Source: Pseudomonadota bacterium
GTDB taxonomy: Bacteria; Bdellovibrionota; UBA1018; CAIMNF01
Direction: 5' to 3'
DNA length: 64,000 nucleotides
Assembly: GCA_027486675.1 (NCBI GenBank)
Contig: JAIXOQ010000020.1
Location: 62,001-126,000, forward strand
This document shows positions 6,256-55,844 of this stretch, piece by piece (the first letter of the stretch is position 1; each line of letters opens with the position of its first letter). Under the pieces are notes generated by a model. That model searched no databases. It was not told the DNA's origin and worked only from the letters and a program-made list of their open reading frames with translations. Both the position numbers and the translations under genes were made by a program.

Positions 6256-7482
6256 ATGAACTCGAAAATTCAGGTCCTGCTTTTGGTTGCTGGTCTGGGG
6301 TTACTTTCTGGAGGCGTATTTCTTTACAAAAAAGTGACCTCCGAATCCCCTGAACTTCTGAAAGCGCCAGACTTGCTTGCCGACTATAAAACACTCAAAA
6401 GCGGCACCGATGATCCGTCTGCGGTCGGGATGGCATTGGCCCGCCTTGCAGGAAGGCAGATCCCTGAAGGGCAAGCGGAAGCCCTGAAGAGGGTCACTCA
6501 TAAGAATCCAACCGTTCGCCGGATGGTGGCGCAGACGCTCGCATTTTATCCCTTTGAAAAAGCGACGAAGGACGCTTTAACGAAGCTATCGCTAGATCCG
6601 GATGAAAACGTGCGTACGACCGTGCTTGAGATGCTTCCCAGTCGTAACGACGGGGAACAAAGGATTTTATTCTTAAAGAATTACTTAGAGCGTAAGGAAG
6701 CCACAAAAGAAGAGCTCACCCTCTGCCACTACGGGCTTTATCAACTTGCGAAAGACCCTAACGAAAAGCAGACCCACTTGGATACCGTCTTTAAAGCCGC
6801 AAGTACGGAGCCCAGTGCCAGGAACGCGATCGGTCTTTTGATTCGCATGGCGCCAACGGATAAGAAAGTGATCGAATTCTTACAGGCTCGCATCAGTACC
6901 GCGGTGATGACGAAGGGGCAGCCATCGGAGGAGGTCGCGCGGATGTTACCGACGATTTATCGCCATTTGGTCACACAATACCCGACGGTGCTGAAAGAAA
7001 AGTTTGCAACCTATGCAACGACCCCTGACCTTCATCTGCGTGTGACGGCACTCACATCGGTGGCTCAGCTTTGCCCTTCGGATCGTTGGCGAGTTTTAAA
7101 CAAGATCCTGATGAGTCCAGAGAGCGACTTTGCTTCAAAGAATGCGGCTCTGACGGGCATTGACCAGTTGGGTGGAAAGAAAGGGCTGCAGCTTCTGAAA
7201 GACATTCCAAAGTCTTCAATCCTACAGATCAAGTCCCGTGCTGAGTTGCTTTCGAAGTCCCCCTCTTTTCAGCGCGCTTTGGACCAATGTGAAATTCCGA
7301 AAGCGGCCCCTAAGGTTGCTGCCAAGGCATCAGCCGTGCCCAAGCACTTAAGCCCTGAGGATTTGCGTGCATTAAAATCAGGGCCTAAAGCGCTTGGTGG
7401 ATTTCCTCCGGGCCGTGGGGTTCCGCCGGGATTCCCGCAGCCTCCAGGGATGAAGGGCTTGATGCCGCCCGCGTCAAAGTAA
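6256..7482 (+). CDS. Membrane-anchored HEAT-like repeat protein, unknown function
   Basis: 408 residues. Residues 7-25 form a hydrophobic stretch after a short N-terminus with one lysine, consistent with a signal anchor or uncleaved signal peptide. The body is alpha-helical with repeated motifs such as NPTVRRMVAQTL and DENVRTTVLEML, which resemble HEAT/PBS-lyase-like repeats. The tail (about 345-408) is rich in Pro, Gly and Ala with PPG-type repeats. It starts 67 bp after the SBBP gene on the same strand. I do not recognise an orthologue. A periplasmic scaffold role is an inference from the repeats only. Confidence 0.6.
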   Translation: MNSKIQVLLLVAGLGLLSGGVFLYKKVTSESPELLKAPDLLADYKTLKSGTDDPSAVGMALARLAGRQIPEGQAEALKRVTHKNPTVRRMVAQTLAFYPFEKATKDALTKLSLDPDENVRTTVLEMLPSRNDGEQRILFLKNYLERKEATKEELTLCHYGLYQLAKDPNEKQTHLDTVFKAASTEPSARNAIGLLIRMAPTDKKVIEFLQARISTAVMTKGQPSEEVARMLPTIYRHLVTQYPTVLKEKFATYATTPDLHLRVTALTSVAQLCPSDRWRVLNKILMSPESDFASKNAALTGIDQLGGKKGLQLLKDIPKSSILQIKSRAELLSKSPSFQRALDQCEIPKAAPKVAAKASAVPKHLSPEDLRALKSGPKALGGFPPGRGVPPGFPQPPGMKGLMPPASK

Positions 7483-42634: not shown

Positions 42635-43837
42635 TTAGGCTTTGATCGTGCTAGCCTTTGATTGCAATGAATCCCAGAGCCCAAGCAGCCGGTCTCTGAG
42701 TTTCTGAATGGGAGTCCCCTGTTCAAGAACGTGATCCCCAGCGCCGTGCACTACCCAGAGTGGGACCGATGGTCCCGCCAAAGATTTCAGTGATTTTGGC
42801 GCACTGATATTTGCAAGAGGCAGCGTCATCTTCGACTCAATCTGCGCGATGATCTTACCTTCTTGGACAATTAGAAAGTCTAACTCGTCCCCGTCTCGGG
42901 TCCTGTATGTGTACATTTGCCACGGAAGATCAAAGTTTCGGATTGTTTTGTAAACTTCTGCAAAGACCAAGCATTCGAATAGGCTCCCTGCTTGAGGTGA
43001 ACTCAGTAGCAAGTTTGGGCTAGCGAATCCTTGGAGGCGACATGCAAGCCCTGTGTCTAAGAAGAAAATCTTCGGTGCTTTTACCATCCTCGATGTTGCG
43101 TTGGTTGAGTAAGGAGAGAGGAGGGAGATAATGCCCATTCGCTCCAAGCTTTGTACCCAGCTTTTTATGGTGTTGGATTCAACTCCAATATCTCGCCCCA
43201 GCTCGCTGGTATTTAAAAATTGCCCTGTACGGGCGGCAAGATGTCTTGTGAGTTCAATGAAGCGATCTACTTTTGTGATTCCAGCTGAAATCACAATGTC
43301 CTTCTCGATGAACGTATTGATGTATTGGTCCAGATATTGCCTAGAGTCAGGAAGTTCGCGTGCGTGAATCTCTGGCCAACCGCCAAGATAAATCAGTTGG
43401 TCGAGCCCTAAGGAACGTACTTTGATGATCTCGGCGACACTCAGGGTGCAAAGCTCATCGATTGTTGCCCGCCCTGCAAGCGACTCTCTGACATTTTGAT
43501 CTAAGGAAATTTGATTTGAACCTGTGATCCTGATTTTAATAGAGTAGTCGCCTTGACGTTTCCAAAGGTCCACTTTGCGTTTTAAGGATGGAAAGAGAGC
43601 GGGCGCATATTGAACTTCATCGATAACCAGCGCTTTGCCTTCATGTTGACTCAAAAAGAGATCTGGATCCCGTTGCGCGAGGGACCTCAGTGCAGGATCG
43701 TCGAGCGATAACTCAAGGAAGTTCCTATCAAGATGAATTAACAGCGAGCTTTTCCCCACTTGCCGAGGCCCACGGATCATTTGGACTGGCATGGAAGATG
43801 TCATGAGGCGGCTTGAAATATCCCTTTCGATCCACAT
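42635..43837 (-). CDS. AAA_14/DUF4143 family ATPase (second copy)
   Basis: 400 residues. Walker A IRGPRQVGKSS (about 21-31) and Walker B ALVIDEVQYAP, then SNTIKSWVQSLERMGIISLL winged helix, and a C-terminal DELDFLIVQEGKIIAQIESKM in which the usual 'ExK' of DUF4143 reads ESK. Overall order equals the protein at 10889 but the two are clearly diverged, so they are separate family members and not a recent duplication. Role unknown. It is convergent with pruA and divergent from the eight-gene exported cluster, so it shares an upstream gap with that cluster. Confidence 0.85.
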   Translation of the reverse strand: MWIERDISSRLMTSSMPVQMIRGPRQVGKSSLLIHLDRNFLELSLDDPALRSLAQRDPDLFLSQHEGKALVIDEVQYAPALFPSLKRKVDLWKRQGDYSIKIRITGSNQISLDQNVRESLAGRATIDELCTLSVAEIIKVRSLGLDQLIYLGGWPEIHARELPDSRQYLDQYINTFIEKDIVISAGITKVDRFIELTRHLAARTGQFLNTSELGRDIGVESNTIKSWVQSLERMGIISLLSPYSTNATSRMVKAPKIFFLDTGLACRLQGFASPNLLLSSPQAGSLFECLVFAEVYKTIRNFDLPWQMYTYRTRDGDELDFLIVQEGKIIAQIESKMTLPLANISAPKSLKSLAGPSVPLWVVHGAGDHVLEQGTPIQKLRDRLLGLWDSLQSKASTIKA

Positions 43838-43982: not shown

Positions 43983-45677
43983 ATGGGTCGGATAATCTGC
44001 AATACACGAATCAGCTGGCTTGGGCCGTTCATGCTGACGTTTTGTTTTGGCGTTATGTCCGCTCCGTTTTGTCATGCAGCCGGCCCTGACCCCGTCACAC
44101 CTCTGATCACAAAACTTCCTGGATATACGCTGAGTGCCGCTGCATGCAAGGAGATCGCGAACACTAACAACGGTGGGTTTGAAAAGGTCGCTGTTCGGGA
44201 AATTACGGAAGTCGGGGCGGCGATGTCGTTCTTGGCGGAGTATGGGCTTCTGGATCATCGTTTCGCGGCCGCGATTAAGCAGGCAATGGTTGCGCAGGTA
44301 AATAAGCCAGAAAAGCTATCGAGCAAGAATGCTCGAACGAGAGTCAAGGTGGTCCATGAGCTTTTTCTTGCCATGTTGCAGGATGGCGATCGATTAGTCA
44401 CTGATGCCTTGGAGTCCTATCGCAATAGCTTGACTACCGAGCAGCGTATCGAGGCATTCAGGCTTACAGATGGAGGTCTGGCAGAAAAGCGTGTTGCCGT
44501 TCAGGCACAGATGACTTCTGTCCGGCTAATGAATCTGATTGCGGCGTTAAAAGAGCAGCCCGATTCCAGGGTTGCATCAACCCTCAGGTCATTTGCTGGG
44601 TTGCAGTTCGTTCGATGGGTGTTTCAACATAAAAACAGCGAAACACAGAAAATTTTTTCTGAGAAATCGCTTCGTAATCTCTCCACCCTCGAGACTGACC
44701 TCTACAAGTCCATTTTCAACTTAAATGGATGGGATGCGTTGACCGCGCTAGGTGCTCTTGGGGGGACTGCGATGTTTGCTGTTACTGATATCCTCCTCCC
44801 CATCTTGTTCGCGATTACGGACGGAGTAAACGTCGCGGTTCATCACATAGGCAAAACATGGGAAGCTGTCGCTTTGCCCAGTTTGACTATCGCCATTCCT
44901 TCGTTTCTTTTTTGCATATATAGGATTCGCGGACCTCGCCTCGGCGGTGATCCGTCTACTTTAATGTCAGCCGAATTTATGACCCTGATGGGACTTGATC
45001 CCACCAAAGTGAGCGCAGTGCAGATTCAAGAATCCCACGGTCCAAGTCACGGGCCCAAAGAAACAAAAACCTTATCCATGGTGAGTTCCTTGAGCTCACT
45101 TCGCGGTCAATCCCTTCGTGATGTTTCGTATCTTTCTGACTTTGAGCGAGGGTTGATGCAATCGATTCGAGAGTCTATTGAGATTTCGTCTCTAGAAACA
45201 CGGGCAAAAATTCAGACCTGGGATCAGCTTGCGATTGGTGTCTTAGATTCAACTTCGCTCAGTGATGTTCCGGCGGTAGCGCTCAATGAAGCGATGCGGG
45301 AGTTTGTTCGATCGTATGGTGACGCGTCAGAGATGGCTCGAGGCTTAAATGATTTGGAGTCCTTAATTCGTGAGAGTGTAGTCCAGATAAAGAAGATCAA
45401 AAGCTTGCCGTTCCAGGATCAGGGGGGTGTGTCTGAACCGCAACAGACAGCCGTTGCGGAACTTCTGAATGCACGTCTGCAGACCAGTCTAAAGACCATA
45501 GAAGAGTTTAGTCAGTACGCGGAGACGATCCGCGTTGGTCGCACGCGATACATTGACGCAGCAAACAAGATTGATTCAATACTCAAGAGCAAAACGCTGA
45601 GCAGCGATACGTCACTTTCGGAGTGGCATGAGATCGCAAGTGAGTTCAGAGAACAACTGGAGAGGGTGCTGAAATGA
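43983..45677 (+). CDS. Exported membrane-hairpin paralogue 1 of AAA+ cluster
   Basis: 564 residues. Signal peptide ending at FCHA (about residue 32). Residues 44-92 hold the family block LPGYTLSAAACKEIANTNN, then FEKVAVREI and a helix ending AEYGLLD. Two hydrophobic segments at about 250-280 and 293-316 form a likely membrane hairpin. The C-terminal half is helical, with a WDQLAIGVLD motif near 413 and a terminal block (LSEWHEIASEFREQLERVLK). If the signal peptide is cleaved, both soluble parts lie in the periplasm. The gene overlaps the next by 4 bp. No domain recognised. No Shine-Dalgarno is obvious; an alternative start is ATG 44031. Confidence 0.7.
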   Translation: MGRIICNTRISWLGPFMLTFCFGVMSAPFCHAAGPDPVTPLITKLPGYTLSAAACKEIANTNNGGFEKVAVREITEVGAAMSFLAEYGLLDHRFAAAIKQAMVAQVNKPEKLSSKNARTRVKVVHELFLAMLQDGDRLVTDALESYRNSLTTEQRIEAFRLTDGGLAEKRVAVQAQMTSVRLMNLIAALKEQPDSRVASTLRSFAGLQFVRWVFQHKNSETQKIFSEKSLRNLSTLETDLYKSIFNLNGWDALTALGALGGTAMFAVTDILLPILFAITDGVNVAVHHIGKTWEAVALPSLTIAIPSFLFCIYRIRGPRLGGDPSTLMSAEFMTLMGLDPTKVSAVQIQESHGPSHGPKETKTLSMVSSLSSLRGQSLRDVSYLSDFERGLMQSIRESIEISSLETRAKIQTWDQLAIGVLDSTSLSDVPAVALNEAMREFVRSYGDASEMARGLNDLESLIRESVVQIKKIKSLPFQDQGGVSEPQQTAVAELLNARLQTSLKTIEEFSQYAETIRVGRTRYIDAANKIDSILKSKTLSSDTSLSEWHEIASEFREQLERVLK

Positions 45678-47323
45678 TCTGGCAAACCACGGTCGTTCTT
45701 CCATTTCTCTTCGCACCCGTTGCCTATGGTGGTTTGATCGATTCCACAGTGACGAATACCGTCGTACCTTTGGTCACAAAATTTCCCGGATACACGCTGA
45801 GTGCCGCCGCATGCAAAGAGATCGCGAACACGAACAACGGTGGGTTTGAGCGTGTTGCAGTCCGTGAGATCACGGATGTCAGGACTGCTGCGTCCTTTTT
45901 AGCAGAATACGGATTGTTCGATGCACGTTTTAGGGAAGCGGTTCATAAGGCACTGGTTGCTCAAGCAAAAAAGCCTGACGGCCAAACAGGGGACACAGTA
46001 AAAGGAAATAGTAAAATCCGTCGGATCCTTACGTCTCTTGAAGAAAATGGTGATCTCGTCACCTTTCAGGCAATAGAGTCGTACCGAGATGAACTCAGAA
46101 TGAATCAGCGTATTAGGGCTGAACACTTTACCGATGACGCCGAATCCGCGCGTAACATTGCGGTTCAAGCTCAGCTCGCCGATGCCCAGTTGCAGCTCTT
46201 GACAGCTGCGCTAAAAGAGCAGCCACAGTCAAAGGTGGCAGAAACGCTTAGATCTTTTGTGGGCATTAGCGTTGCTAGAATCCTGTATCGCGCAACGAGT
46301 GACACCGGTAGCATCCGGTTCACCAAGGACAAGAACCGCGAAAACGGATGTGAGATTTCGTATAGGCAGTTTCTAAAATGGAAAAATCCTCTAGCTAAGG
46401 GAGTTTCAATTGCTTGTGGCATAATGACTCTTGGTATAGGCGCCTATGCTCCTCTTGAAACAGATGCCAATACAATTGACGCTCTGATTCGTTTTGGATG
46501 GGTCTATGGTGTCCAGGCAGTATTCGCAAGTGCAGCGACCATCTCTGGAATCATTGGCTTTGGGCCTCATCTTCAGGCTCAACGCAAAAGCAATCCTTCA
46601 ATCTCCTTTTCGACTGAACTTTTGAGTCTATTGGGTCTTGAATTTTCTAAGTTCGATGATCATAAAACTCGTGATGCCCTTCTTTCGGTAAGTCAAGAGC
46701 CTAGGGCCGCGCAGAGCCTTTCGACGTTAACAACGTCTAGCTCTCTTTCTGGGCACTCACTACGGGACATCTCCTACCTGGGCCACCTGGAAAAAGGCCT
46801 AATGGTTTCATTAAGGGAGGGCGTAGAACTTTCGATAGCCGAGTCAAAAGCGAAGATTAAGAAATGGGATCAGGCTGCGATGAGGGTACTAGATTCCTCT
46901 TACGCAGACGGGACCGCGTTTCTAGACCTTCATGAGTCGATGCGCGAGTTCGTGGGAACATTCAACAATGACTCAGAGGTCATCCATGGTCTTAAGAAGC
47001 TAGAAAAGATAGTCCGAGACAGTACGAAGTCGATCAGAAAGATCAAAGAAATCCCATTTCAAAATAGACCCTATAGCGACGATCCAAATGAGAAGGTTAT
47101 GCAAAGGTTTCTCATTCACACCAGTCAGCTGAGCTTAGTCACTATAGAAGAGTTTGGTCAGTACGCGGAGACGATCCGTCTGGGTCGCACACGATACATA
47201 GCTGCCGCAAATAGGATTGATTTGATACTCAAGAGCAAAACGCTCAGCAGCGATACGCCACTTTCGGAGTGGCACGAGATCGCCGTTGATTTTAGGGAAC
47301 AGCTAGAGATGGTGCTGAGATGA
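45674..47323 (+). CDS. Exported membrane-hairpin paralogue 2 of AAA+ cluster
   Basis: 549 residues. Leader MIWQTTVVLPFLFAPVAYGG, family block from about residue 34 (KFPGYTLSAAACKEIANTNN, FERVAVREI). Membrane segments at about 243-260 and 275-297. KIKKWDQAAMRVLDSS and the terminal LSEWHEIAVDFREQLEMVLR repeat the family pattern. DNA identity with paralogue 1 is very high at both ends (for instance the last 150 bp and the 'AACKEIANTNNGGFE' stretch) but low in the middle. Overlaps both neighbours by 4 bp (ATGA). Confidence 0.7.
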   Translation: MIWQTTVVLPFLFAPVAYGGLIDSTVTNTVVPLVTKFPGYTLSAAACKEIANTNNGGFERVAVREITDVRTAASFLAEYGLFDARFREAVHKALVAQAKKPDGQTGDTVKGNSKIRRILTSLEENGDLVTFQAIESYRDELRMNQRIRAEHFTDDAESARNIAVQAQLADAQLQLLTAALKEQPQSKVAETLRSFVGISVARILYRATSDTGSIRFTKDKNRENGCEISYRQFLKWKNPLAKGVSIACGIMTLGIGAYAPLETDANTIDALIRFGWVYGVQAVFASAATISGIIGFGPHLQAQRKSNPSISFSTELLSLLGLEFSKFDDHKTRDALLSVSQEPRAAQSLSTLTTSSSLSGHSLRDISYLGHLEKGLMVSLREGVELSIAESKAKIKKWDQAAMRVLDSSYADGTAFLDLHESMREFVGTFNNDSEVIHGLKKLEKIVRDSTKSIRKIKEIPFQNRPYSDDPNEKVMQRFLIHTSQLSLVTIEEFGQYAETIRLGRTRYIAAANRIDLILKSKTLSSDTPLSEWHEIAVDFREQLEMVLR

Positions 47324-48960
47324 TTTTAAGAATCATTCTTATCCTCGAAGCATTGTTCTCCGGGCCGGCATCCGCCACTGACACAGTATCACCCCTGATC
47401 ACCAGGCTTCCAGGATACACGCTGAGTGCCGCGGCATGCAAAGAGATCGCGAATACCAATAACGGTGGGTTTGAACGTGTTGCAGTGCGCGAGATCACGG
47501 ATGTTGGATCGGCAGTTTCGTTTTTGACGGAATACGGAATTTTTAGCGATCCCAATTTTGATAGGGTCGTACAAACAATATTAACCCAGCAGGCGAAGAA
47601 GCCTCAGTATCTGACGACCTTTGGTACTCGGGATCGAACTCTGAAGGCGTTCCGTGATATTGCACATGCGATTCAGAAAGACCCCCATTCCCTTACGATC
47701 GAAGCCTTACGGTTGTATCGTCGTGCAGTATTAGAGACCAGTAAGATCGAGGCGTTCCGTCAATCTCAATCTGTGGAAGAACACCACGCTGTAAAGTCAG
47801 CTCAAAGTATCCTACGCGTCACCAAGGTGGATCATCTGATCACGGCCATCACTGAGAGTAGGGACTCAAAGGTGACCCGGACGATTCATTCGTTCCTGGG
47901 GCTTCAGTTCTTTTCGAAGGTGCTTTCCTACACAATGGACGCAGAAAAGAACTTAGCCTTTGGTTCAGAGTACAAAGCGCCTGTTGATTTGCATCGAACG
48001 TACTTTTTGCTTTATAGCTTCATTCAAGGTAAAGGCCTCTCTGATGTGGCACCGTTTGCTCTTTTGAGCGTAGTCTCGTCTTTCTTCGCTGCTATCCATG
48101 GATTAAGGACAGCACAGCATATGCCAGATTCGGATCTAACGAAGGCCATAGTGTGGGTTGCGATTGGTGTTGCTTCAATCATTCCTTACTATCGCTTCGC
48201 TTACGGTCCTCTTTGGGCAAAAAAAGAGGATCCAAGCAGTTTGATGGACGATAGTCTCTGGGAATTCTTAGGACTTAAGGCTAAAGGCATAAATCAACTG
48301 CAACTTAATGCTGCACGAGTTGCAGTTCGGGCCGAGCCCAAGGTCCAACCATCCATCGCTGAGGTGGCGAATTCAGGGAGCTTGCGTGATCTATCTCCGG
48401 GCGAAATCACCTATTTAGGCGACGTAGAAAGGCTCGAGCTTCACGAACTGCGAGATGGGCTTCAGTTGTTAGAACTCGCACGCAAAACAAAGATGCAGAA
48501 GTGGGATGCTTCAGCATTAAATGTCCTAGACGCGAAGTTGATCGGAGCAGCCGGCACAATCGACCTTCGAAATTCGATGCAGGAATTCATTCTTGAGTAC
48601 AACGCCCAAAGTACAACTGCACAATTATTTTTGAAAATGGAGCAAGGCCTTACGTCGCTCCATCGTGCGGTTCATAGTCTGAAGGGTCTGCCTTTTGAGA
48701 TGAGTGATGGACCGCAAGATCCAAGAAAGAGAGCGGTTGCAGAACTTCTGAACGCTCGGCTCCATAACAGTCTCAAGACAATGGAAGAGTTTGGTCGCTT
48801 CGCTGAAACGATTCGCCAGGGGCGGTCGTTATATATGGATGCAGCAAAAAAGACTGATGATTTGCTGATGGGTAAGAACTTAAATAGCGACACTTCTTTA
48901 TCAGAATGGCAAGCGATTGCGACTCAGTTTCGAGATCAATTAGAGAGGGTATTAAAATGA
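47320..48960 (+). CDS. Exported membrane-hairpin paralogue 3 of AAA+ cluster
   Basis: 546 residues. Leader MILRIILILEALFSGPASA, family block RLPGYTLSAAACKEIANTNN, FERVAVREI and TEYGIF. Membrane segments at about 242-262 and 274-296. KMQKWDASALNVLDAK and AVAELLNARLHNSLKTMEEF are shared with paralogue 1, and the protein ends SEWQAIATQFRDQLERVLK. It overlaps the AAA+ gene by 4 bp, so these proteins are made in step with the ATPase. Function unknown. Confidence 0.7.
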   Translation: MILRIILILEALFSGPASATDTVSPLITRLPGYTLSAAACKEIANTNNGGFERVAVREITDVGSAVSFLTEYGIFSDPNFDRVVQTILTQQAKKPQYLTTFGTRDRTLKAFRDIAHAIQKDPHSLTIEALRLYRRAVLETSKIEAFRQSQSVEEHHAVKSAQSILRVTKVDHLITAITESRDSKVTRTIHSFLGLQFFSKVLSYTMDAEKNLAFGSEYKAPVDLHRTYFLLYSFIQGKGLSDVAPFALLSVVSSFFAAIHGLRTAQHMPDSDLTKAIVWVAIGVASIIPYYRFAYGPLWAKKEDPSSLMDDSLWEFLGLKAKGINQLQLNAARVAVRAEPKVQPSIAEVANSGSLRDLSPGEITYLGDVERLELHELRDGLQLLELARKTKMQKWDASALNVLDAKLIGAAGTIDLRNSMQEFILEYNAQSTTAQLFLKMEQGLTSLHRAVHSLKGLPFEMSDGPQDPRKRAVAELLNARLHNSLKTMEEFGRFAETIRQGRSLYMDAAKKTDDLLMGKNLNSDTSLSEWQAIATQFRDQLERVLK

Positions 48961-50540
48961 TATTCGTACTTAGCTTTTGGATTCTACATATTTCAACTAC
49001 TCGTGTTTTCGCAACTGAGGATACCGCTGTTTCGGCAACAAAACCCGTCTCCGAGGTGCGTTGTGTAATTGTTGCAGAAGGTGCGCGCCCGAAGGAGATT
49101 CAACAGATCGCAGACGAGGCAAAGCGATATGTGATTGGGCAGGATGAGGCGATCGATCTCATTGTCGATACTCTGTCGATAGCTCGTGCAGGGATGAATG
49201 ACCCAAAGAAGCCATTTACTAGCGTTCTTGTGCTTGGGCCGACAGGCGTGGGTAAGACAGAAACCGTAAAGGCGATGGTGAAAGCCATGGGCGGTGATTT
49301 TCAAAAGAATGTCATCCGTCTCGACGGTGCAAACTTTGGCGGAGGCCACGAAGGGAGTGCGTTGACGGGCACGGCACCGGGTTATGCGGGTTACGGCGAA
49401 GCAACTCGTTTAGACCCTCAATCTGTTGAGAAAACCAAATTTAGCGCTCCATTTCTCAAGGGTTCGAATCGCAAAGTGGGCTGGCTACTTTTTGATGAGT
49501 TAGAAAAAGCGAGTCGTAAAATAGACAATACCTTCTTACCCCTTTTAGATGAGGGTTACATCGAAGATCTTAAAGGACAGAAAACAGATTTTCGCGAACA
49601 CATTGTATTCATGACAAGTAATGCAGGTGCGACGAAGGTGGCGGAGGCTGTACATGAAAGGCAAAAGCAGCTTGATTCGGAGTTCGGCGTAGGAATTCGG
49701 GACGCAACCGGACGTAATGACGCGCAGTTTGCTGCTGAAGTTCGCGAAATTTACATGAAAGCCCTTTCGGAAGCTGGCTTGACGCCGGAGTTTAGAAATC
49801 GATTCGACGCGATCGTGGTCTACTACCATCTTGGCCGCGAGCAAAATCTTAAAATATTAGAGAAGGAATTGGCAATGATACAGCAGACCATCTTATTGAA
49901 GGCTGGCGCCAAGGTCCTGCTGAAGGTGACGGATACAGCAAAGATCGAGTTAGTGCGGCAAGGAATGGATCTTTTTAATGGCGCAAGGAACCTTCAGCGT
50001 AGTTTAAAAAAGCTTGTTCGAAAGCCGATATCAGAGTTCATAAACATGGATAGAATTCAGGATGGCGATCGTTTGGTGCTCGATTTTGAGAATGGGTCTG
50101 GCTTCCAATGGTCCAAAGAGTCCACGGGAATGAATGCAGCGATGCTTGCGGCCGATGCAGCACATGAGTACCCAGGATTTGGATTAGATAGGGTTTCTAC
50201 CTTGGACGTGAGTAACGATCTTGAAGGATCACGGCCTCAGGAGTGGACCTATCATGAGGCAACACTTAAAAACCTCTGGTCTCGCATAACAATGCAACCG
50301 CTGAAACTAGAGGGGACTGAGACCATGATAAAATTCTTCCGTGTCGATAGTCTTATTTATAAAATGAAACGAACTGAGCATAGTTCTGCAGTTCGTGAGT
50401 TTTCCATTATGGGTACTTATGAAAACTTCTCAGAGATCAACTTAGGTCCAAAGCCAAGTATTACTGAAAAGGATCTGACCACTTTTAAGACCGGTCCACT
50501 CGAGGGCGGAGTCTTCAAGTTCGAAAAGGTGGAGTTATAA
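48957..50540 (+). CDS. ClpB-D2-like AAA+ ATPase with an N-terminal export signal
   Basis: 527 residues from ATG 48957, chosen because it overlaps the previous stop by 4 bp like the other junctions. Residues 1-19 are a hydrophobic leader ending VFA. The AAA+ core is complete: GPTGVGKT (94-101), pore-loop-like PGYAGYGE (141-148), Walker B LLFDELEKA (177-185), sensor 1 MTSNAG (219-224), arginine finger PEFRNRFD (277-284), sensor 2 GARNLQR (342-348). It is closest in pattern to the second ATPase ring of ClpB/Hsp104 and to torsins, with a unique C-terminal extension (about 380-527). No ClpP-binding loop or protease is seen. Export of an ATPase is puzzling; the leader has no N-terminal positive charge, so an anchor with the ATPase left in the cytosol is possible. 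Confidence 0.85.
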   Translation: MIFVLSFWILHISTTRVFATEDTAVSATKPVSEVRCVIVAEGARPKEIQQIADEAKRYVIGQDEAIDLIVDTLSIARAGMNDPKKPFTSVLVLGPTGVGKTETVKAMVKAMGGDFQKNVIRLDGANFGGGHEGSALTGTAPGYAGYGEATRLDPQSVEKTKFSAPFLKGSNRKVGWLLFDELEKASRKIDNTFLPLLDEGYIEDLKGQKTDFREHIVFMTSNAGATKVAEAVHERQKQLDSEFGVGIRDATGRNDAQFAAEVREIYMKALSEAGLTPEFRNRFDAIVVYYHLGREQNLKILEKELAMIQQTILLKAGAKVLLKVTDTAKIELVRQGMDLFNGARNLQRSLKKLVRKPISEFINMDRIQDGDRLVLDFENGSGFQWSKESTGMNAAMLAADAAHEYPGFGLDRVSTLDVSNDLEGSRPQEWTYHEATLKNLWSRITMQPLKLEGTETMIKFFRVDSLIYKMKRTEHSSAVREFSIMGTYENFSEINLGPKPSITEKDLTTFKTGPLEGGVFKFEKVEL

Positions 50541-51149
50541 ATGAAGAACTTAAACTTTTTTTTGGCCTTGGTGATTCTGTCTATTCCGCACGTGAGTGTG
50601 AGTGCCAACAGCTGCAACGCTGCATCAGAAGGAGCTGGCGCGAGAATATCTACACAACTTGCAACGCAGCTTGCGCATGAAGTCTACACGGCTCAAGAGG
50701 CTTATGTGGCGCCTGTTTCATTCCTAGATGAGGTGTTTGCATTCGACTTCGGACTCGATGAGGCCTTCTTGCGTGCAAAAGAGGAATATGAGGCGATTGT
50801 CATCGATCAAGCATTTCTAGAGCGATACGAATCGATTGATGACATCCGGGACCAACTACCTCCAGCGCTCAATCTACGTCAGAAGCTCAATTTCATCGGG
50901 AAGCATTATGACAAAGCACTTACCGATATCGGCAAGAAAAAGTCATTGGGTGTGGCACTCAGCATGCTCAGTATCCCGGCGGAACCCACCTTTGCTGCCG
51001 TTATTGCGAATGACCCGGTCAGTCAGGAGTTTAAGAGTGCTCTTTATCATGGGGTCAAAGAGTGGTTTGCCTCAGAAGGATATAGTGTTACGAGTTGGTC
51101 AAATGGGTTTGACCAACATATTGCGAATGCTAAGCGCAGAAGGTTATAG
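50541..51149 (+). CDS. Small exported protein of AAA+ cluster
   Basis: 202 residues beginning directly after the AAA+ stop codon. Signal peptide MKNLNFFLALVILSIPHVSVSA, then a Cys (NSCNAA). The mature part is helical and acidic in the first half, basic at the end (AKRRRL). No family recognised. Its position between the ATPase and two more exported proteins implies the same process. Confidence 0.65.
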   Translation: MKNLNFFLALVILSIPHVSVSANSCNAASEGAGARISTQLATQLAHEVYTAQEAYVAPVSFLDEVFAFDFGLDEAFLRAKEEYEAIVIDQAFLERYESIDDIRDQLPPALNLRQKLNFIGKHYDKALTDIGKKKSLGVALSMLSIPAEPTFAAVIANDPVSQEFKSALYHGVKEWFASEGYSVTSWSNGFDQHIANAKRRRL

Positions 51150-51151
51150 CT

Positions 51152-51967
51152 TTGTTCCTTTTGGCTTTCCTCATTTACCAACAGGTTGCGGCTGCTGCCA
51201 CTCTTTGTGCAGATATTTCGGATGTGCTTACGCGCTTCTATAAACACCCCTTGGTCGCGTGGGCCGGGCCCGAGATTGCTTTGCGCAGACCCCCGTCGGT
51301 TTTCCCGACGCTTGGGACGGAGGAACTTCTATCCGTTCGCCCCATCATGGAACTTCCTCGCGGGCTTTCTGAATACCAAGCCAGGATTTTCCGGCGGATG
51401 ATAGAGACATTACGATCCCCTGGACGTATTTTTTTGCACATACTCGTGCTTGAATCACGCCTCAAAGAAGAGTCCTTAGAAAATATTTTATCCGCCTCCG
51501 AATCAATGTTTGGATTTCAAGTGGTTGATGTGAGGGGTCGCCTCACCCGTCAGGAGTGGATGAAATATTTGGCAAGCGGTCAGACTTTCAATGATTTCGG
51601 CGGGGATCTTATCAGTCTAAGTATCAATGGCCATCGCACGCAGAAGGGGCATTGGCGTCACGCCAGACTGGCCCATCGGTTGCAGCTTGGTTTGATTTTG
51701 ATGGATTACATGCAGACCCCAGAGGCGTACGGCACAAAAGCGGAGCTTCTGCAGGCCTACAAAGACTTAGGCGATAGAGCTTTAGACGCACGTCTTGATT
51801 GGTCTCACACGTATCTTGCACCCACTGATCCTGAACATGCTGAGTATGATGATCGGCATAATCTTTTCTTTCAGATTTTTGATAGTGCTGAAAATAATCC
51901 GTCAAGCCCAGGATTCTTCCACGAATACCGTGAGTTCTGGCCTCGTCTTGCGGAGGCGATTCTATGA
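51152..51967 (+). CDS. Exported protein of AAA+ cluster, TTG start
   Basis: 271 residues from TTG 51152; AGAAGG 8 bp upstream (51138-51143) supports this start. Leader MFLLAFLIYQQVAAAA, then LCADISD. The body has a conserved-looking WMKYLASGQTFNDFGGDLISLSINGHRTQKGHWRHARLAHRLQLG segment with several His and Arg residues, and a C-terminal region rich in Asp, Glu and aromatic residues. I see no catalytic motif I can name. Overlaps the next gene by 4 bp. Confidence 0.6.
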   Translation: MFLLAFLIYQQVAAAATLCADISDVLTRFYKHPLVAWAGPEIALRRPPSVFPTLGTEELLSVRPIMELPRGLSEYQARIFRRMIETLRSPGRIFLHILVLESRLKEESLENILSASESMFGFQVVDVRGRLTRQEWMKYLASGQTFNDFGGDLISLSINGHRTQKGHWRHARLAHRLQLGLILMDYMQTPEAYGTKAELLQAYKDLGDRALDARLDWSHTYLAPTDPEHAEYDDRHNLFFQIFDSAENNPSSPGFFHEYREFWPRLAEAIL

Positions 51968-53430
51968 CTTTACTCCTCTCTCTATTCTGTTTCTTTCTTC
52001 TTCCAGAGGCCTCTGCTGAATCAGGATCCAGGCCTCAGTATTCCCTTTCTCTAGAGGCTTGCGAAAAGTTTGCTTCCGCGAAAATGACCTTTGAGCAGAT
52101 AGCAGTCAGCGAGATCAAAGACACCTCCGGCGCACTTGCACTGCTCTTTGACTACGGGCTCCTTGATCGTAAGTTCGCAAGGATCATCGAGATGACCGTG
52201 GACACATTTCACAGCGAAGGCCCGATCAGTTCTCTACCTGTAAAAGACATCAGGGGGCGCGCAATACGGACGGCGCAGACCTTCGAAAACATTCATAACG
52301 ACTTTGACCGTTTTCGGAACGAAGTCCTCGCTGGATATCGCTCCGTGAGTCTTCAGAGGGCAAAGATAGGTGATGATCAGACTTTAGGAATCCATACGGC
52401 CGCACAGTTAGCGCGACTCTATGCGGCCATAGAGGAATATCCACAATCAGCCGTGTCTTTGGGATTTAATCAATATCTGCGCTATCAATTGCTAGGTGAA
52501 TTGACCGCGAAAGCTCCCAACCAGGGGTGGGTGAGTTTTTTTCCGATTCAGTACTACCTCGCCGTAGTCTGGGTCGCAGGTGGTCTAGCTATTGCGGCAG
52601 GACTATCAGATGTTGATGCCTTATCACTTCTACCTTTTTTAGCTGCATTCCATGCCGTTTTGGCGCTACCCCCGCTTCTTTATGATCTTGTAAACAACAG
52701 TATTCGCCGATTTAAATTCGCCCCTATCTTGAAGGCTAAAAAGAATTGGCAAGCGAAGACAGATGTTATCGCCCTTGAGTTTACAGAGGCATTCACAATT
52801 GTGACGCAAAGTGGCTCGCAGGTCTCAGATCAAGGCAGCAAGGAGCCCGATCTCATGCAACAGGCGATGCCTTCGATCGCCTACGCAGGTGAGGAGCATC
52901 GGATCCAGATAGCGCAGGCGATGGACCAACTCAAAGACACCAGGGACGAAATGAAGCTACGTTTTCAAGAATGGGACGCTTCAGCTTTGGAGGTCATCCA
53001 TGTAGACGGCGATGGAACACTTCAGCAGAAAGCTAAGCTTTTTGAGGCAGTGAATGATTTGCATGCATTTCTAGTGTCGGGGGTTGGAGTTTTAGACAAC
53101 CTCAAAGCACTCACTCAAGCATTAGAAAACTACGCCGCGCATATGAGTGAGCTCGGTGAAATTGCATTTGAGACAACGCGTAAGGAACCCGATACTTTGG
53201 CAGCGGCCAAGGCAAACTTACTTTATGCAAGGGTCCTTTCGCAGGAGACATACGTCAAAAACACGCGCGAACAGATTCTAAAACTTCAGGTTTTACATAC
53301 CACGCTGAACGGGCTTGCAAACACCGCAAATGCACTCGTTACAAGAGGTATTCGTCCATCGTCTGCACCCAATGCATGGCTTAGTCTTGCTTCTGATTTT
53401 AGGCTTTTATTGGAAACGGTCAGCTTATGA
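51964..53430 (+). CDS. Distant membrane-hairpin paralogue 4 of AAA+ cluster
   Basis: 488 residues. Leader ending ASA (residue 18). The family block is recognisable but diverged: LSLEACEKFASAKMTFEQIAVSEIKD and LLFDYGLLDRKF. Hydrophobic segments at about 197-214 and 219-243 are in the same relative place as in paralogues 1-3. RFQEWDASALEVIH matches the WDxxAxxVLD motif, and the end (NAWLSLASDFRLLLETV) matches the SEWHEIASEFREQLERV block. It is therefore a true but older relative. Overlaps the following gene by 4 bp. Confidence 0.65.
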   Translation: MTLLLSLFCFFLLPEASAESGSRPQYSLSLEACEKFASAKMTFEQIAVSEIKDTSGALALLFDYGLLDRKFARIIEMTVDTFHSEGPISSLPVKDIRGRAIRTAQTFENIHNDFDRFRNEVLAGYRSVSLQRAKIGDDQTLGIHTAAQLARLYAAIEEYPQSAVSLGFNQYLRYQLLGELTAKAPNQGWVSFFPIQYYLAVVWVAGGLAIAAGLSDVDALSLLPFLAAFHAVLALPPLLYDLVNNSIRRFKFAPILKAKKNWQAKTDVIALEFTEAFTIVTQSGSQVSDQGSKEPDLMQQAMPSIAYAGEEHRIQIAQAMDQLKDTRDEMKLRFQEWDASALEVIHVDGDGTLQQKAKLFEAVNDLHAFLVSGVGVLDNLKALTQALENYAAHMSELGEIAFETTRKEPDTLAAAKANLLYARVLSQETYVKNTREQILKLQVLHTTLNGLANTANALVTRGIRPSSAPNAWLSLASDFRLLLETVSL

Positions 53431-54713
53431 CAACGCTTTGGATCATTCTTTCTTTGATGTTTGTTTCCGATCTTGCTGCAGCTGGGGATCCACCAAAAAC
53501 CCCCCTAACTTTTCCCATGTCGGCCAGATTGTGTGTCGCAGCAGCGAGCGGCATTCCAGGTGAGTTTGAATACATTGCTGTAGATGAAATCAACTCCACT
53601 AGAAGTGCCATGATCCTTTTGGAGGCCTATGGGATGGGGTGGAATGACAAACTGAGCGATGTAGCATATGAAGAAGTCGCCGACGAGGGAAATGCGGGTG
53701 ATCTATTGTTACGTCTAAACAAAGGTTATCGCGTGTCCGACGCTGAAATTAATAGCGCCATCAGAAAGATTCAACAGAGGTCGCAACGGCAGGGGTATTG
53801 GCTCTCGTCTCGCCCTAGGTCGGTTGCATTGTTCTCGACTATCACAGCGAACCCTGACTCAAAAGTTTACAAAACCTTTAAACTTCTCGTGATTCATTTG
53901 ATTCAACTGAGAATTGAACAATCTATTCGAAAGTCTGTACCAACGAGCGGCCCATTGGCGCGGGTTAAGGACCACCGGTATCTATGGTTTCGAGAGCAAC
54001 CCGATTTGGAAACAATGAATGAGCTCAGCGAAGTTCTGCACGAAATTCGGCTCAGTCCCAAACTCACAGAGGATCTTTTCTTCCGTGTCCGTCAGACTGA
54101 AGATGCGCTCCAACCGCAGGTAAGTTTCGATTCATCCGCGTTAACTCCGGTACTGAATTCCATTCAGTCCGAGTATGCGCAACTTCTGACGCGGATCCTA
54201 GAGCTCCAGAATGAAGTCCAGTCTGCCATTGCCGCGTTAGAAAAAGGGAGCCGGCTCCATTCGCTAAAGATTTATCGCATCTTGCTGGATCCTGTTTTTC
54301 TGGACGGCGATGCCAAAATCGGTAGAAAGCTTAAAGAATTTAGAGATCTGGTTACGCAGCAAAAACTCCAGATTTCGGTTGCTGTGGATACACTTTTTAC
54401 AGTCCGAAACGACCGGGTCACAAGCCACGAAGATCGGGTCAGGAGGGAATCGACTCTCGCCCTGATTGACGAAATAAATGGAGTGATTTCTTCATCTGAA
54501 GCACTTTTAGATCAGCTTTCACATCTCCCTGGGTTGTTTGAACGCCTCCTAGAAGAGGTTCGCCAGATTCAGATCGAAAATCCTGGCCCATCCACCCCTG
54601 TCGAAGCTTGGATTGAAGCGGGAAAGGCGATGGATCAGATTTTGGGCAAGGCAATCGCCGAGATACCACAAAAGTCAACTATTGACGAAAGTGCGCCTCC
54701 AGGCCTAGAATAG
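53427..54713 (+). CDS. Distant exported paralogue 5 of AAA+ cluster, no membrane hairpin
   Basis: 428 residues. Leader ending AAAG (about residue 19), then a variant family block with Cys (MSARLCVAAASGIPGEFEYIAVDEINSTRSAMILLEAYGM). FDSSALTPVLNSI aligns with the WDxxAxxVLD motif and PVEAWIEAGKAMDQILGKAI with the terminal block. The central hairpin is missing, so this member may be entirely periplasmic. The C-terminal half is helical, probably coiled coil. Last gene of the exported cluster; guaB starts 3 bp later. Confidence 0.6.
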   Translation: MTTLWIILSLMFVSDLAAAGDPPKTPLTFPMSARLCVAAASGIPGEFEYIAVDEINSTRSAMILLEAYGMGWNDKLSDVAYEEVADEGNAGDLLLRLNKGYRVSDAEINSAIRKIQQRSQRQGYWLSSRPRSVALFSTITANPDSKVYKTFKLLVIHLIQLRIEQSIRKSVPTSGPLARVKDHRYLWFREQPDLETMNELSEVLHEIRLSPKLTEDLFFRVRQTEDALQPQVSFDSSALTPVLNSIQSEYAQLLTRILELQNEVQSAIAALEKGSRLHSLKIYRILLDPVFLDGDAKIGRKLKEFRDLVTQQKLQISVAVDTLFTVRNDRVTSHEDRVRRESTLALIDEINGVISSSEALLDQLSHLPGLFERLLEEVRQIQIENPGPSTPVEAWIEAGKAMDQILGKAIAEIPQKSTIDESAPPGLE

Positions 54714-54716
54714 GCC

Positions 54717-55844
54717 ATGCATACCCTGCCAGAAGCGCTCACTTTTGATGATGTTTTGATCCTCCCCTCCTACTCTGAAGTTCTTCCCACTGAAGTGGAT
54801 ACGTCGGTGGAACTGGTCCCCGGCTTTAAGCTTTCGGCCCCCATCCTATCGGCTGCGATGGATTCCGTGACCGAAACGAAAATGGCCATCCGCTTAGCAG
54901 AGATCGGTGCTCTGGGTGTGCTCCACAAAAACTGTGACATCGCGACCCAAAGTGCTTGGGTGGCTCAAGTGAAAGCAAAAAAAGGCGTAGACGAAGATAG
55001 CACGATCGATAAATCGGGTGCTCTGCGTGTTGCGGCCGCCACAGGCGTTGGACCACAAGGATTGGAACGCGCACTTGCACTTTTGGATGCGGGTTGTGAT
55101 GCGATCGTGATCGACACAGCGCATGGGTATTCCCGCGGTGTTCTTCATGCCGTCGCGGAACTGCGCAAGCTTAGAAAATCCGCAGTCATCATCGCAGGCA
55201 ATGTCGCTATGGCGGACGGTGCAAAAGCTTTGATCGATGCCGGCGCAGACGTGGTGAAGGTGGGCATGGGACCTGGCGCAATCTGCACGACCCGTGTGGT
55301 CAGCGGCGTGGGAGTTCCTCAGTTGTACGCCATTCAAACCTGTGCAGAAGTTTGTCGAGCGGCCGGAAAAACATTGATCGGGGACGGCGGCATTAAGCTT
55401 TCCGGTGATGTGACTAAAGCGCTGGCAGCAGGCGCAACCGCCGTGATGATGGGATCGATGTTGGCCGGTACCGATGAAGCGCCGGGTGAACTGATCGATC
55501 TCGGCGGAAAGAAAGTAAAAGTGTACCGAGGCATGGGAAGTCTTGCAGCGATGGAGCGTGGCGGCAAAGAACGTTACGGCCAAGGCGGAGTTCAGGAAGC
55601 AAAAAAATTAGTGCCTGAAGGCATCGAAGGTTTAGTCCAGGCCAAAGGTCCAGTGGACGCAGTCGTGTGGCAGTTAGTCGGCGGCCTCAGGTCTGGGATG
55701 GGTTATGTGGGTGCCCCGAACGTGCAGGAAATCGCAAAACGCGCACGTTTTGTGCGCATCACTGGAGCCAGTTTGCAGGAAAGTCATCCGCATTCATTAT
55801 CTGCGATCATGGCAGCACCGAACTACAATACGGGGCGCAGCTAA
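54717..55844 (+). CDS. guaB: IMP dehydrogenase lacking CBS domains
   Basis: 375 residues instead of about 487. [51 protein letters not shown] with catalytic Cys190, [19 protein letters not shown] and the flap ([10 protein letters not shown]...RYGQGG) are all present. The two CBS modules that normally sit after residue 90 are replaced by a short linker ([18 protein letters not shown]). The enzyme makes XMP from IMP with NAD, the committing step of GMP synthesis. Loss of CBS domains would remove purine-nucleotide allosteric control. Directly follows the exported cluster and precedes guaA. Confidence 0.95.

Follow-up and report, generated by a model that had tools for sequence, protein, structure and literature searches.

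Three described systems place a Clp-related AAA+ ATPase (ATPase associated with diverse cellular activities) outside the cytoplasm. In the Plasmodium translocon of exported proteins (PTEX), the secreted Hsp100 ATPase HSP101 works with the membrane partners EXP2 and PTEX150 (PMC7355975). Human CLPB/SKD3 has one nucleotide-binding domain and occupies the mitochondrial intermembrane space, whose topology resembles that of the periplasm (PMC9934407). The torsins, Clp relatives of the endoplasmic reticulum lumen, cooperate with membrane proteins (PMC7175109, PMC4358337); they depend on an external activator and probably do not thread polypeptides (PMC7175109, PMC6646356). Here we describe a run of eight co-directional genes (P1, P2, P3, AAA, P5, P6, P7 and P8) at positions 43983-54713, plus strand, of a 64,000-nucleotide stretch of DNA from a Bdellovibrionota genome (the window), which encodes a single-ring Clp/Hsp100-type ATPase and seven partners, all with signal-peptide-like N-termini.

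We propose, with a probability of about 0.5, that this operon encodes an extracytoplasmic protein-remodelling machine built around an Hsp100-type unfoldase. To our knowledge, bacteria hold no ATP-driven (ATP, adenosine triphosphate) Clp-type unfolding motors outside the cytoplasm. As the periplasm is taken to be without ATP, energy-driven protein machines are thought to reach no further than the bacterial inner membrane, and a clade of leader-bearing Clp-type ATPases with intact motifs makes this limit directly testable: either the compartment does receive ATP in these lineages, with prey as a conceivable source, or the proteins end in another, ATP-containing cell, or the leaders mislead.

In logic the operon appears comparable to PTEX, SKD3 or the torsins, and we assign it to none of them. 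As in PTEX, a secreted Hsp100 ATPase would be accompanied by membrane partners, but HSP101 has two rings and works at a eukaryotic vacuole, and the operon partners have no known kinship to EXP2 or PTEX150, a comparison made at the level of family libraries, where the partners gave no Pfam or NCBIfam match. SKD3 likewise has one nucleotide-binding domain but carries an ankyrin N-domain and lacks an operon of membrane-hairpin partners. No described system matching the operon was found in Pfam, NCBIfam, PHROGs, PADLOC or the literature searched. This agrees with a preliminary description, made from the sequence alone, whose author knew of no described secretion, defence or envelope system with this composition. 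The ATPase itself belongs to the known Clp family; as a whole, the system may be categorically new.

The operon ATPase and its relatives

The ATPase contains a single AAA+ module, of Clp D2 type, as judged from matches to the Pfam families AAA_2 (92.8 bits; cut-off 27) and ClpB_D2-small (40.1 bits; cut-off 21.9). The Walker A (GPTGVGKT), Walker B (LLFDELEK), sensor 1 (TSN), Arg finger (PEFRNR) and sensor 2 (GARNL) motifs are intact, and the aromatic pore loop, GYAGY, is of the GYxGY type. In these features the protein resembles the D2 ring of ClpA, ClpB and ClpC, but it carries a leader, ends in an extension of ~150 residues without a known domain and falls in a separate clade. The preliminary description had called it a complete ClpB-like ATPase; the N-domain, D1 and middle domain are in fact absent, leaving a single D2-type ring. 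NCBIfam scores were correspondingly below the cut-offs for ClpB (186 versus 1232 bits), ClpA (173 versus 993) and ClpV/TssH of type VI secretion (152 versus 885). A sequence search of the PDB matched the D2 ring of ClpC (E 4.9e-44, residues 57-381), HSP101 of PTEX (6e-25) and human CLPB/SKD3 (1.9e-22), and phages yielded Clp-like matches only, the five best spanning at most 68% of the query. Taken alone, the ATPase would represent a new, apparently exported subfamily of the Clp family.

In a profile search of 369 genomes of the phylum, eight carried an ATPase scoring above ordinary ClpA/B/C, namely the window genome (G000) and G030, G128, G007, G364, G011, G266 and G076. Leaders were present in all six of these ATPases whose start was read. 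Because Lys or Arg precedes the hydrophobic core of the leader in the ATPases of G030, G007, G364, G128 and G076, several of which also have A-x-A-like cleavage sites, the AAA domain is predicted to lie outside in these proteins. In a tree of AAA domains, the exported Clp-like ATPases group together (98/95), separate from full-length ClpA/B/C; this clade covers the seven ATPases that span enough of the domain and divides into a branch of G128, G266 and G076 and a branch of G000, G007, G030 and G364 (92/90).

Members of the former branch (L106 5172-7121, L066 6818-8599 and L067 ~6305-7420) differ in their C-terminal part, and the G266 copy is broken by stop codons. A separate three-gene cassette was seen in two genomes (L061 2097-5127, G011:C425; L062 5322-8233, G007:C178) and comprises a membrane AAA protein of 366-385 amino acids, a 328-amino-acid ATPase and a transmembrane protein. 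This ATPase is ClpB-D2-like, has no leader and occupies a distinct branch of the tree; the transmembrane protein ends in a Cys-rich PCxxCGxCCC motif.

Putatively exported partners of the ATPase

Conserved gene order links the ATPase to P5 and P6. In G011, which belongs to the same family as the window organism and to another genus, the end of an exported-type ATPase gene stands ahead of a P5 homologue (25% identity) and a P6 homologue (41%), arranged as in the window; unrelated genes follow P6, and the upstream part is lost at the contig end. Two exported proteins adjoin the ATPase in G007 and G030, one of them TelA-like and the other 343-368 amino acids long. In G364, it is preceded by an exported TelA-domain protein (PF05816; 1.6e-7) and by a 551-amino-acid exported protein that has a hydrophobic hairpin in its central part. 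TelA-like partners of exported ATPases carry leaders, unlike TelA. Across the class, sampled with 58 genomes, P5 and P6 were confined to G000 and G011 and the TelA-like protein to G007 and G030, and these four are all the class genomes that have an exported ATPase; the window genome yielded no TelA-like protein. Since the ATPase occurs either with P5 and P6 (G000, G011) or with a TelA-like protein (G007, G030, G364), the recurring unit in the operonic branch is an exported ATPase with exchangeable exported helical or membrane partners.

P6 carries the conserved motifs GHW.H....HRLQ and LFFQxFDSxENN. Two of its distant relatives, from another family of the phylum, match DUF5636 (PF18686) at 40.3 and 56.6 bits (5e-10 and 5e-15; Pfam cut-off 25 bits), and P6 aligns with them around W...L..G..FND and GH...HR.Q. 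The P6 homologue of G011 scores 16.8 bits, and P6 of the window has no Pfam match, both below threshold; through these intermediates, P6 may be distantly related to the DUF5636 group. An AlphaFold model of P6 was unusable (predicted local distance difference test, pLDDT, 48).

Two other observations were made around the ATPase loci. Upstream of the TelA-like partner in G364 (L105 9021-11999, G364:C390) lies a gene for a large protein of at least 992 amino acids with a Gly-rich start and a HEIVHE zinc-protease-like motif. A 466-amino-acid neighbour of the G030 ATPase looked by eye like a remote paralogue of the operon proteins (a Cys followed by VEMATTRIERAAVIANLFGND), which neither BLASTP nor hhalign supported.

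P1, P2, P3 and P7 are paralogues related over their full length, with identities to P1 of 46% (P2), 39% (P3) and 23% (P7). They share an N-terminal block, S...C...(F)E..AV.EI....A...L..YG, a pair of hydrophobic segments spaced 20-35 residues apart at about residues 197-313, and a helical C-terminal part. The hairpin is weaker in P2 (Kyte-Doolittle maxima ~1.5) and is missing from P8, which has only the Cys block in common with the other four (hhalign E 7e-7, profile columns 16-76). Hence the five Cys-block proteins and four central hairpins of the preliminary description are borne out, and the common terminal helix holds for P1, P2, P3 and P7 but not for P8. An AlphaFold model of P3, built from four sequences, is all-helical with a mean pLDDT of 61, reaching ~80-90 in the C-terminal bundle and staying at low confidence in the hairpin region. 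The partners gave no family match in Pfam, NCBIfam, PHROGs or PADLOC, the last two scans covering all of them except P2; with the same coverage, PADLOC returned AAA-domain matches to the ATPase and a 0.043 match to P6, and nothing else for the operon proteins. No relatives of P1 were found among viral contigs, and P3 and P6 had no match among plasmids.

In contrast to the ATPase clade, which occurs in eight of 369 genomes, the paralogues were found in the window genome only: across 358 genomes of the phylum, convincing matches to the Cys block were confined to it, with three weak matches elsewhere. The expectation that the ATPase would always accompany the Cys-block family was thus not borne out. 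The two do occur independently, as far as these paralogues are concerned, but the wider idea of an ATPase with exported partners is unaffected, and, on this distribution, the paralogues are a local elaboration and not a constant partner of the ATPase. One of the weak matches (G007:C262) belongs to a phospholipase-D-like protein with no relation to the operon proteins and was put down to chance; three leader-bearing phospholipase-D-like proteins lie close together at that locus (L137 371-5652). A sixth Cys-block copy in the window genome (L063 4460-5245, G000:C7) encodes a solitary exported protein of 261 amino acids and adjoins an insertion sequence element.

Leaders and the single N-terminal cysteine

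By sequence inspection, all eight operon proteins have a hydrophobic, signal-peptide-like N-terminus, as had been claimed, and the evidence for export consists of these leaders. Lys and Arg are absent from the n-region of the P2, AAA, P6, P7 and P8 leaders. A Cys follows soon after the leader in each of the eight proteins, six of which have no further Cys in the mature part. A lone Cys no more than 35 residues from the leader was significantly more frequent in the operon (6/8) than among other predicted exported proteins in ~0.4 Mb of the window genome, window included (5/77; Fisher 2.6e-5), and also when the paralogues were counted once (3/4 versus 5/77, p 0.0025). Leaders were called with a simple script, which missed some operon members, and the values for these were read by hand. 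The Cys occupies the same post-leader position in all six exported ATPases whose start was read and in nearly all partners in G007, G011, G030 and G364. A lipoprotein role for this Cys was considered and set aside, the operon proteins having no lipobox at these positions on inspection; disulfide-linked assembly is one possibility.

Elsewhere in the window genome, three tandem exported paralogues of ~450-500 amino acids adjoin lon (L120 14495-18683, G000:C13) and carry, close to the leader, a Cys in the context C(Q/G/E)E(I/V); they apparently form a family distinct from P1-P3. A tandem pair of exported proteins of ~1100 amino acids (L111 2235-8941, G000:C4) has DPSIC soon after the leader.

A proposed mechanism and its alternatives

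For the operon we infer that the products lie beyond the inner membrane, form a complex and thread polypeptides, and that ATP is supplied in that compartment, as follows. Sec-type leaders would carry all eight products through the inner membrane, and the single D2-type ring would assemble outside the cytoplasm, where its pore loops would pull polypeptides. The central hairpins of P1, P2, P3 and P7 may insert in a membrane and form a hetero-oligomeric platform, with P5, P6 and P8 as putative soluble subunits that assist it or handle substrates. The ring would thread clients through the platform or extract them from it, as HSP101 does on EXP2/PTEX150; in an alternative mode, it might assemble and disassemble the platform itself. 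ATP would have to be available outside the inner membrane, with a prey or host cell as one conceivable source. A membrane assembly remodelled or powered by the AAA+ protein, as the preliminary description had it, thus survives in outline as the best explanation, without a complete ClpB and without the paralogues as constant partners. Much less probable is the broader proposal that some Bdellovibrionota run Hsp100 unfoldases outside the cytoplasm with exchangeable single-Cys exported membrane partners, for example threading proteins across a prey or host membrane, as a bacterial counterpart of PTEX.

Several findings weigh against an extracytoplasmic machine. The leader of the operon ATPase has no positive charge ahead of its hydrophobic stretch and has an Arg at the end of it. 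The chief difficulty is energy: ATP is held to be lacking in the periplasm (PMC11366764), and a TLC-type ADP/ATP translocase (ADP, adenosine diphosphate), sought as a mark of nucleotide parasitism, was found neither in the window genome nor in the remaining class genomes that carry the ATPase. Branches in the ATPase clade are long, which leaves its inner order uncertain and could bear on the clade itself. The G007 ATPase (L065 1-1134, G007:C198) has lost the sensor-2 Arg (GTGDL) and is possibly inactive. The ATPases of G076, G128 and G266 have no recognised partner operon, a partner cluster of this kind not being seen around those of G076 and G128. The partners at other loci (TelA-like, 343/368 and 551 amino acids) are not detectably homologous to P1-P3 or P8, and none of the partners appears to have a recognisable fold, the P3 model having no PDB match below E 0.2.

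The charge pattern of the operon ATPase leader and the presumed lack of periplasmic ATP would both be explained if the hydrophobic N-terminus were an anchor that leaves the AAA domain on the cytoplasmic side, as in an inner-membrane quality-control or assembly factor running on cytosolic ATP. Because its n-region is uncharged, such a topology could apply to the operon ATPase itself, but it fits poorly with the charged n-regions and A-x-A-like sites of its relatives in G030, G007, G364, G128 and G076, and the seven co-encoded partners carry leaders too; we consider it unlikely.

A torsin-like envelope remodeller, in which the exported ATPase switches the assembly states of the hairpin proteins with no threading, would also account for a single-ring Clp relative, apparently extracytoplasmic and co-encoded with membrane proteins, as expected from the behaviour of torsins described above. 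Unlike the torsins, however, the operon ATPase retains an Arg finger and an aromatic pore loop, and the PDB sequence search, with matches taken up to E 0.001, contained no torsin chain; we consider this option quite improbable.

Lower still we place a secreted, multi-component pore-forming or antagonistic system, in which P1-P3 and P7 would be ClyA-type hairpin pore-formers and P6 an effector-like protein, assembled or loaded by the ATPase. Leaders, the all-helical prediction and the central hydrophobic hairpin of several paralogues are consistent with it, and DUF5636, matched by relatives of P6, has a single listing, in Dyella, among the products of genes that flank type VI secretion VgrG genes. 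ClyA was also the top Foldseek match of P3, but this match is non-significant (E 0.22, probability 0.20) and comes from a low-confidence model; moreover, neither Pfam nor NCBIfam gave a match to a pore-forming family, and no immunity gene was recognised in the operon. Finally, a chance grouping of orphan genes without a joint function, to which the restriction of the paralogues to one genome might point, deserves hardly any credence in view of full-length open reading frames, 39-46% conservation among paralogues, five exact ATGA junctions and AAA-P5-P6 synteny in another genus (G011).

Gene order and neighbouring genes

The window genome assembly comprises 2.7 Mb, and the operon lies on its contig C23. 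The tight coupling of the eight genes noted in the preliminary description was confirmed: ATGA overlaps join P1/P2, P2/P3, P3/AAA, P6/P7 and P7/P8, and the gaps at AAA/P5 and P5/P6 are 0 and 2 bp (Table 1). For AAA, a Shine-Dalgarno-like gagagg precedes the ATG at 48957, whereas the start of the longer open reading frame at 48906 has none.

Table 1. Coordinates and properties of the operon genes and the adjoining guaB gene in the window
Gene	Position	Strand	Product and features
P1	43983..45677	+	564 amino acids; exported paralogue; C55 in Cys block, hydrophobic hairpin 260-313, helical C-terminal part with WDQLAIGVLD
P2	45674..47323	+	549 amino acids; exported P1 paralogue; weaker hairpin 243-295
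P3	47320..48960	+	546 amino acids; exported P1 paralogue; predicted all-helical (AlphaFold)
AAA	48957..50540	+	527 amino acids; exported-type single-ring Clp/Hsp100 (D2-like) ATPase; sole Cys C36
P5	50541..51149	+	202 amino acids; exported-type; single Cys C25; homologue adjoins exported ATPase in G011
P6	51152..51967	+	271 amino acids; exported-type; TTG start; single Cys C19; possible distant DUF5636 link via intermediates
P7	51964..53430	+	488 amino acids; exported P1 paralogue; central hairpin 197-243
P8	53427..54713	+	428 amino acids; exported-type; N-terminal Cys block is the sole part in common with P1-P3 and P7
guaB	54717..55844	+	IMP (inosine monophosphate) dehydrogenase, named from sequence; 3 bp 3' of P8; guaA next

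The guaB and guaA genes are probably ordinary neighbours of the operon. A promoter-like site (54682-54711, 10/12) lies within the end of P8, ahead of guaB, but sites of this kind do not exceed their frequency in shuffled sequence. The possibility of a foreign island was dismissed, the guanine-plus-cytosine content of the operon (47-50%) showing no clear contrast with that of its surroundings (47-53%). Directly upstream, on the opposite strand, a divergent gene (42635-43837) encodes a DUF4143-like AAA ATPase, named from sequence.
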